This document shows, piece by piece, positions 21,447 to 64,000 of a DNA stretch of 64,000 bases. The notes under the pieces were generated by a model. The model was not told the DNA's origin. It saw only the letters and a list, made by a program, of their open reading frames with translations, and did no database searches. The stretch spans positions 1-64,000 of the forward strand of contig JAKQCT010000032.1 in the NCBI GenBank assembly GCA_029559035.1, in the 5' to 3' direction. Both the position numbers and the translations under genes were made by a program. Origin of the DNA: Acidobacteriota bacterium (GTDB taxonomy: Bacteria; Acidobacteriota; UBA4820). Position 1 is the first letter of the stretch, and the number at the start of each line of letters is the position of its first letter.

Positions 21447-24400
21447 TCAATTGCATGCCGCGGTGAGCTCCACCTGTCTGGCGCCGGCCGTGGCGCTTCC
21501 GGGAGGCCCCAGATATACCGCGTCAGGATCTTCGCAGTCGTACCCCTGTATGATGTAGTAATAGCAGCGTCCGGAAACACCAGAAGAATCGTCCGTCCCG
21601 TCGAAAACAAACCCGGTCGCCCCGTCCGATATCCCGAACGACCGGCAGGAGAAATCGGCACCGCTGGTTATCAACGCAGGGAGGTTCGACTGAATGCCCC
21701 GGGCGACCCTGTAATAATCGGCGCCGCTGATGTTCGTCCACTTGAACCCGCTCTTGTCCGTGTTGACTGTCTCGATAACTTCCGAAACCGGGGCGATGCA
21801 GGAAACGGCTCCGCAGTCCGGGTCGCTCTGAGCGTAAAGCGGGGAATCGGCATAGCAGGACCCGTTGACTGCCCTGACCATGAAATTGTGCATATTCCCG
21901 TCGGAAGGAGAATAATAAACAGGAGATGAGATGTTGGTAAGAACCGGAGTTCCTTCTCCGTCAAGATAGAGGTCGTGCTGAACGGCGGGAGCCCCCTGAG
22001 TAAAGACGATCATCAGACTGCAGCTCCCGTCCAGGTTCGAAATGCCATCTATTGACGGAGGCGTCATCGTCGTGCAGCCGCCAAAGGTCGCTATGAAATC
22101 TATGGTGGCGCATGGGTTGACGGGGTCGCAGTACTCAGTGAAGATCTTGAGGACAGGGTCTGTCTGGCTGTTAGACCAGTTCGAAAAAGTGTAAGTAAAA
22201 CCGCCTTCCTCCTGGGGGGAAACCGCTATGACCTCCCGGTCGTAATTTGAGGCCCAGGCAAAGGTGTGTTTTGTCGCGTAGGTAACTCCGTCGAGGCTTA
22301 TGACCAGATTGAGGTAATCGCTGCCAGAATACGAGTAGAAGGAATAGTTGTCACCGAGAGTGGTGCAGAAGATATCGTCGTTTGCCCCGCCGCTCACGTG
22401 GCTGATCTCCTTGTTGAAGGTTGCCCCGGCTCCGGCATAGGATAAACCCCAGTAATTGAAGGCGTTGATCGTCCTCGGGACCGGAGAAACCAGGTTGTCG
22501 GGATCAGATATCGTATAGGAAGCAGTGAAATAGTACCAATAGGCGTAAATGAACCCGTCGCAGGTCTCGTCTGAAGGATCCGAAAGGATCATCTGCACTT
22601 CGCCCAGTTCCGACGGGCTGTCGGCCGCCCTGTGGAAATAAGCCATGTAGATGAACGGGTGTTCTGAGAGTCCGCTTGTTTGCAGGCCCGCTCCGTCCTG
22701 GATAAGGGACGGATACCTCTCGTCCCCCCTGCCGTCATAGAACCACCCCTCCTGCCAGTTCCTGCTAAGCGTGTCTTCACCGCAGGTCATCGTCCCGCAG
22801 GTCGTACCGCCGTTGCACATGTTCCAGGCGAAGCACACCTGGTGTCTTTCGAGGTCCGCCGGATCGGGGTTTCCCGCCGGGAAATGCTGGTCGGCGGCGA
22901 CCACGACCCTCGCCTGAGTCCATGAAGCCGAGCCTCCGCCGTGGGTCGATATGACCGATGGCGCTCCGTAATCCCAGCCGATGCCGTAGTCGCTCAGGAC
23001 CGTTATCTTGCCCGCAGCCTGAAGGCCGGCGGGATACGATGTGCCGCCGGGGTGCTGAGCCCTCGCGTACCTTACCTCGTAGCCCGAAGGAAGCGTAACA
23101 TTCAAGGCAGTGTCGTCAAGGAAGAAACTGGTGATGTTCGTCGAATCGGTTGTAGCGAGGAAATAGGCCCTGACAGTTTGTCCGGCATAGGGCAGCATGT
23201 CGAACGAGAGCGGCTGATACGCCGCGTAGGTGTTCTTGTCTTTATTGCTCAAAGTCTGAAGAGTGGCAAGGACGTTGTTCGAAGTGTCCCTTAACTGGAT
23301 GTAAAGAAAATCGTAGGCGGTTGTCGTCCCTTCCGCGGACGTAATCTTCAAATAGAAAGAAAGGTTCGCTGAAACAGCATTCGCGGGAACAACGACATCC
23401 TGGTAGATGAAGTCGGTGTAACTGTTTATCCCGGCGAGCCATGCGCAACAGCTCCCCGTCCGCTGGTACCCCCCCCCGCAGTTGATGTCGCCCGTTGAGT
23501 TGACGGTCCAATTTCCGTCGTTCCCCGATTCGAATCCGCTGTTCAGGAGCAGTTGATTCGTTGAATAAACATCATAATTATAAGCGAGATGCATGTACTG
23601 CGTGAAAGTGGAGTTCCCGGAAGCTCCGTTGGACAGGGAAGGGTTCCGCTCGGAATTGGTGTCGGCGGCGACGGAGACGGCGGCGCTCCAGTCAGCGGAT
23701 GCTCCCGCGCCTGTGGACTGGCTGGCAAGGATATCATAATTATAGCTTCCCGCGGAGGCCTCCTTTTCGAACACTGCGACTCTGTACGAGGTCTGCCCCG
23801 CCTGGTAATCGGAAGCGATATCGGGGTTCCTCTCCATGAGCGTGGATGTCCCGATCCCCACATCCTGGGCGTTCGGAGTCGAGCTGAAACTCTCCGAATA
23901 GACGTAGATGTCGTGGTCGGTCTCGCTGTAGGCGTATTCGTAGGCGATGAAGAACCTGTTATCGCCGGGTAGAATGTCGATGGCGAGGCGCGGGTTGATC
24001 AGGTCTTTTCCCCCCGTGTCGTAAAGGATCTCGTAAAGCCACCATGTCGAGCCGCCGTCGGGTGAAAGGTAGATTGCTAGAGAATAGCTGGGATTGGGGT
24101 GGTCGGGGAAATTGGCGGTGTCCGAAAAATAAAAAGACTGAACGTGCCATACCCATCCGTCGTCGTCCACCTCGATGTCGCTGGCCCCCTCGTCGTTGGA
24201 CCTGATGTCGACCGGCAAGGTGGGATAAGTCTTTTCCACTATAAGGTCGTATATCTTCTGGTCGAATATCCAGCCCGTGTTGTATTTCTCGCCTCCCAGG
24301 AATCCGGAAATGAAAGACTCCCCGCGGCCGCCCCCAAGCGGGGTGTTCCTGATGGAGCGTAGTTTTTTATGACCCTTCAGTGCAAGACCCAGCAGGTTCT

Positions 24401-24791
24401 GAAGGCGGTACTTCGAATCCACGAGAGACAATATTCTTTCCGGGAGCGGTTCATCCCCGGCAGAGATTTCTTCCAAAAGAGATTCATGCCCGGCAAGGGA
24501 ATCGGATAATTCCCTCCTCAGGAGGTCATCTTCGATTATTCCTGAGGCCAGCAGGTCCTGAGCCTCTTTCCCGACCCTCAACGCGTCTTCGATGTCGAAG
24601 GGCGGAGGAGCGTTCTGATTTTCCTGCCCCGAAGTACCTCTAAATATTACATCTCTTTGCGGAAGATCCGATAACCGGTTGTCTCCGTAAAACGCGTTCC
24701 CTGAGTGATTCCTTTTCATCGGCTCAATGGTCGACACGGTTATCGGGAAAAACATGACCCCAACTGCCATCAGGAAAAGAATCCTTTTCAT
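21447..24791 (-). CDS. Giant secreted protein: BNR-like propeller with jelly-roll insert and FN3-like C-terminal domain
   Basis: A 1114-residue exported protein with a signal peptide in residues 1-22. Residues about 155-400 and about 580-830 carry beta-propeller-like strands, with an Asp-box-like SPDGGSTWW near residue 240. Between them (about 415-575) lies a jelly-roll/CBM-like module (LLNSGFESGNDGNW, then FFLDDTALNVT). A close relative of this module ends the neighbouring metalloprotease. The C-terminus (about 1000-1114) is an FN3-like domain with conserved Cys (VETVNTDKSGFKW, ADYYRVARG, GRCYYYIIQGYDCEDPD); it recurs in the truncated gene at the right edge of the window. No catalytic residues are recognised. 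It may be an adhesin or a glycan-binding surface protein. The SD GGAGGCGGA overlaps the tail of an upstream terminator. Confidence 0.75.
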   Translation of the reverse strand: MKRILFLMAVGVMFFPITVSTIEPMKRNHSGNAFYGDNRLSDLPQRDVIFRGTSGQENQNAPPPFDIEDALRVGKEAQDLLASGIIEDDLLRRELSDSLAGHESLLEEISAGDEPLPERILSLVDSKYRLQNLLGLALKGHKKLRSIRNTPLGGGRGESFISGFLGGEKYNTGWIFDQKIYDLIVEKTYPTLPVDIRSNDEGASDIEVDDDGWVWHVQSFYFSDTANFPDHPNPSYSLAIYLSPDGGSTWWLYEILYDTGGKDLINPRLAIDILPGDNRFFIAYEYAYSETDHDIYVYSESFSSTPNAQDVGIGTSTLMERNPDIASDYQAGQTSYRVAVFEKEASAGSYNYDILASQSTGAGASADWSAAVSVAADTNSERNPSLSNGASGNSTFTQYMHLAYNYDVYSTNQLLLNSGFESGNDGNWTVNSTGDINCGGGYQRTGSCCAWLAGINSYTDFIYQDVVVPANAVSANLSFYLKITSAEGTTTAYDFLYIQLRDTSNNVLATLQTLSNKDKNTYAAYQPLSFDMLPYAGQTVRAYFLATTDSTNITSFFLDDTALNVTLPSGYEVRYARAQHPGGTSYPAGLQAAGKITVLSDYGIGWDYGAPSVISTHGGGSASWTQARVVVAADQHFPAGNPDPADLERHQVCFAWNMCNGGTTCGTMTCGEDTLSRNWQEGWFYDGRGDERYPSLIQDGAGLQTSGLSEHPFIYMAYFHRAADSPSELGEVQMILSDPSDETCDGFIYAYWYYFTASYTISDPDNLVSPVPRTINAFNYWGLSYAGAGATFNKEISHVSGGANDDIFCTTLGDNYSFYSYSGSDYLNLVISLDGVTYATKHTFAWASNYDREVIAVSPQEEGGFTYTFSNWSNSQTDPVLKIFTEYCDPVNPCATIDFIATFGGCTTMTPPSIDGISNLDGSCSLMIVFTQGAPAVQHDLYLDGEGTPVLTNISSPVYYSPSDGNMHNFMVRAVNGSCYADSPLYAQSDPDCGAVSCIAPVSEVIETVNTDKSGFKWTNISGADYYRVARGIQSNLPALITSGADFSCRSFGISDGATGFVFDGTDDSSGVSGRCYYYIIQGYDCEDPDAVYLGPPGSATAGARQVELTAACN

Positions 24792-63504: not shown

Positions 63505-64000
63505 TCAGTCGCCGCCGCAGTTTGTAACCGGAAGATTCCTGGTCACGACTCCATCGCCCGCAGGCCCGAGATACTCATCGGGGTCTTCGCAGTCGTAACC
63601 CTGGACGATATAGTAGAAGCATCTTCCCGCGACGCCCTGAGAGTCATCCTCGGTCGCGTCGAAAACAAAACCTGTCGCTCCGGTCGAGATCCCGAATCCG
63701 CGGCTTCCTATGCAACCGAAGCTGTAAGTGGAAAGATCCGCATTCAAAGCGCGCACCACCCTGTAATAATCTGCTCCGGCAATATCCGCCCATTTAAATC
63801 CCGTCTTGTCCGTGTTTACAGTTTCTACAACGGGATCCGAAGGCGCGGTACAAGCCACGCAAAGGTCCGCCGCGGCCAGCGAACCTGAATCGGCGTAGCA
63901 GGCTCCGTTGTATGTCCTGACGGCATAGCTATGGGACGCACTGTCACCCGGATCATGAAGGTAAGGACTCGTTATATTGGTGGCCACCTGTGAGCCATCT
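63505..64000 (-). CDS. 3' end of a large secreted protein (truncated by window edge)
   Basis: About 165 C-terminal residues; the gene continues beyond the right edge. The last 115 residues are an FN3-like domain with conserved Cys (VETVNTDKTGFKW, ADYYRVVRA, GFGISTGATGFVFDATEDDS, GRCFYYIVQGYDCEDPD). It aligns almost end to end with the C-terminus of the 1114-residue protein at 21447-24791, and the preceding segment (ITSPYLHDPGDSASHSYAVRTYNGACYADS) also matches there. A paralogous surface protein is likely. Confidence 0.8.
   Translation of the reverse strand, partial: DGSQVATNITSPYLHDPGDSASHSYAVRTYNGACYADSGSLAAADLCVACTAPSDPVVETVNTDKTGFKWADIAGADYYRVVRALNADLSTYSFGCIGSRGFGISTGATGFVFDATEDDSQGVAGRCFYYIVQGYDCEDPDEYLGPAGDGVVTRNLPVTNCGGD

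Follow-up and report, generated by a model that had tools for sequence, protein, structure and literature searches.

The window, the whole 64,000-nucleotide stretch analysed here, carries on its reverse strand a gene for a 1114-aa protein with a signal peptide and, at its far edge, the C-terminal part of a gene for a second exported protein (Table 1). The original prediction placed the former at 21447-24000; the lower coordinate stands, but the open reading frame extends to 24791. No Pfam domain was found above cut-off in the 1114-aa protein. The second protein continues up to approximately position 70167 of contig C93 as a 2220-aa open frame (stop-to-stop), which includes a signal peptide, a P-domain match and tandem FN3/Ig-like repeats. 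All of the motifs quoted earlier as shared by the two tails (VETVNTDK(S/T)GFKW, GADYYRV, GATGFVFD, GRC(Y/F)YYI and QGYDCEDPD) were found, and their proposed homology was borne out by BLASTP (57% identity over 157 aa, 166 bits, E 5e-52). The length of this match indicates that the homology also takes in about 50 aa upstream of the tail; this segment is an Ig/FN3-like repeat, of which the 2220-aa protein has many tandem copies. In the 1114-aa protein the cysteines of the C-terminal domain (CTD) are Cys52 and the terminal Cys116, numbered along the 117-aa segment. The adjoining gene encodes a 1641-aa exported metalloprotease-like protein with an HEVGH motif, five carboxypeptidase-regulatory-like repeats and a MAM-like C-terminus, and no CTD.

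Table 1. Positions of the features described in the text (contig or locus given where the feature lies outside the window)
Feature	Position	Strand	Basis
1114-aa protein with signal peptide, MKRILFLMAVGVMFFPITVS	21447..24791	-	ORF read
CTD of the 1114-aa exported protein, ending ...VELTAACN-stop	21450..21800	-	tail comparison
Metalloprotease-like protein, 1641 aa	24878-29803	-	
C-terminal part of the second exported protein	63505..64000	-	ORF read 63505-63999, runs past window edge
CTD of the second exported protein, ending ...LPVTNCGGD-stop	63508..63852	-	tail comparison
Short exported protein, own genome	L061:1691-2344	+	
CTD copy with in-frame TGA	L105:111-695	+	
CTD copy with in-frame TGA	L124:3-815	+	
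CTD copy with in-frame TGA	L128:521-3133	-	
T2SS/T4P-like operon	C54:55500-75400		
Lipoprotein secretin	L288:9404-11761	+	

The genome from which the window derives (2.86 Mb) was matched 36 times at E<=0.01 by a profile of the tail (A1), and 32 non-duplicate copies scoring at least 35 bits were counted. The observation of a shared C-terminal domain is thus confirmed, and the family is larger than described, since only two copies had been noticed. The domain is about 95-115 aa long and closes its protein in 30 of the 32 cases; one copy is cut by a contig end, and one (L051) is internal, with 168 aa of Cys-rich repeats behind it. Of the 30 terminal copies, 29 have their final Cys 0-4 aa before the stop; L061 has lost this residue. 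Within the class, 10 of the 13 genomes examined have the domain, and at E<=1e-8 the number of matches falls from 32 in the own genome to 8-12 in genomes of the same family and 1-7 in other genera. Terminal copies number 76 among those readable and internal copies two (L051 and L110), and every terminal copy but one has its last Cys 0-4 aa from the stop. The other class copies are interrupted by TGA (three), cut by contig ends (three) or run into Ns (L119). Those relatives that have names are labelled Thermoanaerobaculaceae, Thermoanaerobaculum or Candidatus Aminicenantes, in keeping with an acidobacterial origin of the window.

Two sets of variants were observed. A short exported family with the pattern SxSY...EHV.N.GG.P (L061, L174, L176 and L179) ends in the same kind of domain and occurs in several families of the phylum; its own-genome member lacks the final Cys. 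In genomes G001 and G003, of a sister genus, three copies have an in-frame TGA in place of the expected Gly of the FG-loop motif (GE[TGA]PAG, NPG[TGA]EGPSG and GQE[TGA]TAG), and the frame beyond it runs on to the usual Cys end. Genome-wide recoding of TGA is unlikely, since other long reading frames read from these two genomes are open; candidate causes are mutation, assembly error and programmed truncation.

Carriers of the domain had been described as exported and otherwise different proteins, and both statements are upheld. In the own genome 24 copies belong to proteins whose N-terminus is intact, and in 21 of these a hydropathy rule detected a signal peptide; the rule is crude, since it also flags 12 of the window's 33 long reading frames, membrane and cytoplasmic proteins among them. 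In the remaining three (L034, L043 and L055) a signal peptide was recognised by eye, the rule having missed them because of a GTG start, the lack of Lys/Arg and a start further in than the span inspected, respectively. No carrier among the class copies was clearly cytoplasmic. Their architectures are unrelated and include subtilase, M14 carboxypeptidase, Kelch/PD40/LVIVD propellers, CBM96, Big_7 and P-domains, while some proteins have nothing recognisable ahead of the domain. Judged by N-termini, particular cargo-CTD pairs recur across genera, for example an M14-carboxypeptidase-type protein (L035/L107/L125/L118/L148) and a QIPGEGW protein (L036/L103/L132/L139/L149/L152). Two genes of a tandem array share 93.7% DNA identity from 71 bp ahead of the domain to the stop and only patchy identity of about 80% upstream, whereas another pair shares 86.5% until about 30 bp ahead of the domain but not across it. 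This DNA comparison suggests that the CTD may be exchanged as a detachable module.

Beyond a P-x-E-[IVT] start, the invariant or nearly invariant positions, in the numbering of the window copy, are W21, Y30, R34, L40, L43, C52, Y82, G98, G101, R108 and C116, and an LxxL...DSC insertion is conserved. The two cysteines are nearly invariant across copies, and their co-conservation points to a probable Cys52-Cys116 disulphide. Searches of Pfam and NCBIfam gave no family match at a meaningful level, in line with the earlier remark that it was not recognised as a named sorting domain, and among the papers listed by our literature searches none described it. The Pfam fn3 model (PF00041) matched none of the members of A1 or of a wider profile, A6. 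An FN3-like character, also proposed originally, is nevertheless suggested by the sandwich predicted by AF2 for a canonical copy, L041 (pLDDT 84.1), the strand order of which is compatible with FN3; it has a helical insertion after the strand taken as C, and a terminal strand is predicted at 108-111. FN3 domains ranked first in Foldseek with weak E-values (best 1qg3, probability 0.98, TM 0.49, E 0.15), those of the pectate lyases Pel3/PelI being among the weak top hits. An earlier AF2 model, of the window copy (pLDDT 72.8), had no clear structural match. In class copies there is no C-terminal hydrophobic helix (maximum 15-aa hydropathy of the last 45 aa <=1.49), and a transmembrane tail of the CTERM/LPXTG type is not supported.

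In order to describe the distribution across the phylum we used A6, which found relatives in 68 of 297 sampled Acidobacteriota genomes; as at most 16 candidates were scored per genome, its high per-genome counts are to be read as "at least". The distribution is uneven, with at least 5 copies in 43 of the 297 genomes and none in 229, and one complete genome of 6.0 Mb has 114 copies at E<=1e-5. Among 54 copies read from this genome and a few others, 39 have no more than 12 aa between the domain and the stop, for the most part with CP directly before the stop. About half to three quarters of the copies are terminal in the genomes G014 and G029, and the internal share beyond the class is roughly a quarter to a half; internal copies retain the Cys pair. 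These internal copies mean that the strict terminal rule is true of the class and not of the superfamily. The proposed restriction to the extreme C-terminus of exported proteins therefore holds in the class and in part elsewhere, and the equal frequency of internal or cytoplasmic copies that had been named as counting against it is absent from the class and, for internal copies, partly seen in the rest of the phylum. We conclude that exported proteins bear the CTD as a terminal module, and that it descends from an FN3 type which is also able to be internal.

The operon on contig C54 contains GspF-like, GspE-like, PilMNOP-like (by eye) and lipoprotein-secretin genes. Its secretin (L288) has TPR repeats and, at the C-terminus, an additional domain that is cohesin-like by eye and lies in a region with no Pfam match; another secretin of the genome, PilQ-like by eye, lies on C43. 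A GspK profile (PF03934) had no match in the own genome, and among the CTD-rich genomes it matched no reading frame of GspK size. A canonical T2SS link thus received no support, but this negative is weak because the 63-position model is short and also matches non-T2SS proteins and Gram-positive controls. The genome also encodes three C25 (gingipain-family) peptidases, L050 (C32), L183 (C6) and L184 (C54), one of them directly downstream of a CTD gene, with no T9SS detected. As CTD cargo these were rejected, since the two complete ones have no CTD and the third is truncated where its contig stops.

In this acidobacterium and its class, dozens of unrelated Sec-exported proteins thus end in one FN3-like domain, amplified in the lineage and bearing two near-invariant cysteines. 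Its position, the export and unrelatedness of its cargo, its persistence on similar cargo from genus to genus and its all-or-many distribution favour a common tag, and we consider the most likely, if putative, function of the CTD to be that of a folded-state export or surface-retention tag (probability roughly 0.45). Its cysteines would form a disulphide in the periplasm and so staple the end of the chain to the conserved insertion that follows strand C; once folded and stapled, the domain would be read as the common tag, a plausible candidate reader being the T2SS/T4P-like operon with its lipoprotein secretin. Against a tag, no machine demonstrably co-occurs with the CTD, the domain is internal in two proteins of the class and in parts of the wider phylum, and some exported proteins, such as the neighbouring metalloprotease, do without it. 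The sorting, anchoring or translocation role originally envisaged would fit the terminal placement on exported, unrelated cargo, but no dedicated machine could be tied to it. The conserved residues (core Trp/Tyr, disulphide, Gly turns) lend themselves to a structural reading, and the main rival is a partner-free end cap, in which disulphide-stapled last residues shield the C-terminus from fraying and carboxypeptidases and the domain is fixed at the end because a staple is useful there. This serious alternative explains much of the same data, including the co-conserved cysteines, the last of them so close to the stop, the pair kept in internal copies and the predicted terminal strand. It leaves unexplained why most genomes of the phylum lack the domain while one has over a hundred copies, and why exported neighbours have none; we regard it as possible, though less likely than the tag.

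That the CTD is an ordinary FN3 accessory domain for adhesion or polymer binding, multiplied through duplication and recombination and terminal by descent, appears unlikely: its probable FN3-like fold, the internal copies outside the class and the module-like DNA identity would agree with this, but 76 of 78 class copies are terminal on unrelated cargo and Pfam fn3 matches no member of A1 or A6. Far less probable still is a T9SS cargo signal of the Por_Secre_tail or CHU_C type. A predicted C-terminal beta-sandwich on Sec-exported cargo, as in T9SS, was found, and C25 peptidases are present in the genome, but SprA_N was not found in 40 genomes, nor TIGR04189 in the own genome at E<=10 (positive controls were weak), the PorV model matched only FadL-like barrels below cut-off, and the T9SS tail models did not match the CTD, apart from CHU_C in one member at E 0.038. 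T9SS membership is thus unsupported.

Returning to the export or surface-retention tag, one may tentatively hypothesise an undescribed Acidobacteriota route which would recognise the folded, stapled FN3-like C-terminus as an address on dozens to more than 100 proteins per genome. Whichever function applies, this unnamed family turns up in numerous Acidobacteriota genomes, where it is a mark of many large extracellular proteins. As a sorting tag it would give access to secretion in one of the major phyla of soil and sediment, and even as a cap it provides an annotation model by which otherwise hypothetical proteins can be named as exported.

Among known systems, the logic of such a tag would be closest to that of the T9SS CTDs of Bacteroidota, where a folded C-terminal sandwich serves as the address, only without T9SS parts. 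Those domains are likewise small Ig-like sandwiches at the C-terminus of unrelated Sec-exported cargo (PMC11285876, PMC4804311), with a conserved extreme C-terminus and inter-strand loop, and the C-terminus and one loop are their conserved signals (PMC11285876). The present domain differs in being probably FN3-like, in its two near-invariant cysteines, in matching no T9SS tail model, in that no SprA was found and in its phylum. MYXO-CTERM, PEP-CTERM, GlyGly-CTERM and LPXTG tails are also C-terminal tags on many exported proteins of a lineage, and MYXO-CTERM also has an invariant Cys (PMC11980579); unlike these, the CTD is a globular domain of about 100 aa with no C-terminal hydrophobic helix. 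In the pectate lyases Pel3/PelI, loop 3 of the Fn3 domain, which joins strands C and C', acts as a signal for secretion by the T2SS (PMC7949064). The LxxL...DSC insertion sits near this position, after the strand taken as C. Both domains belong to exported proteins, and the CTD is probably FN3-like too, but that of Pel3/PelI is N-terminal and belongs to one enzyme family, whereas the CTD is C-terminal, probably stapled by its cysteines, and borne by many cargos.
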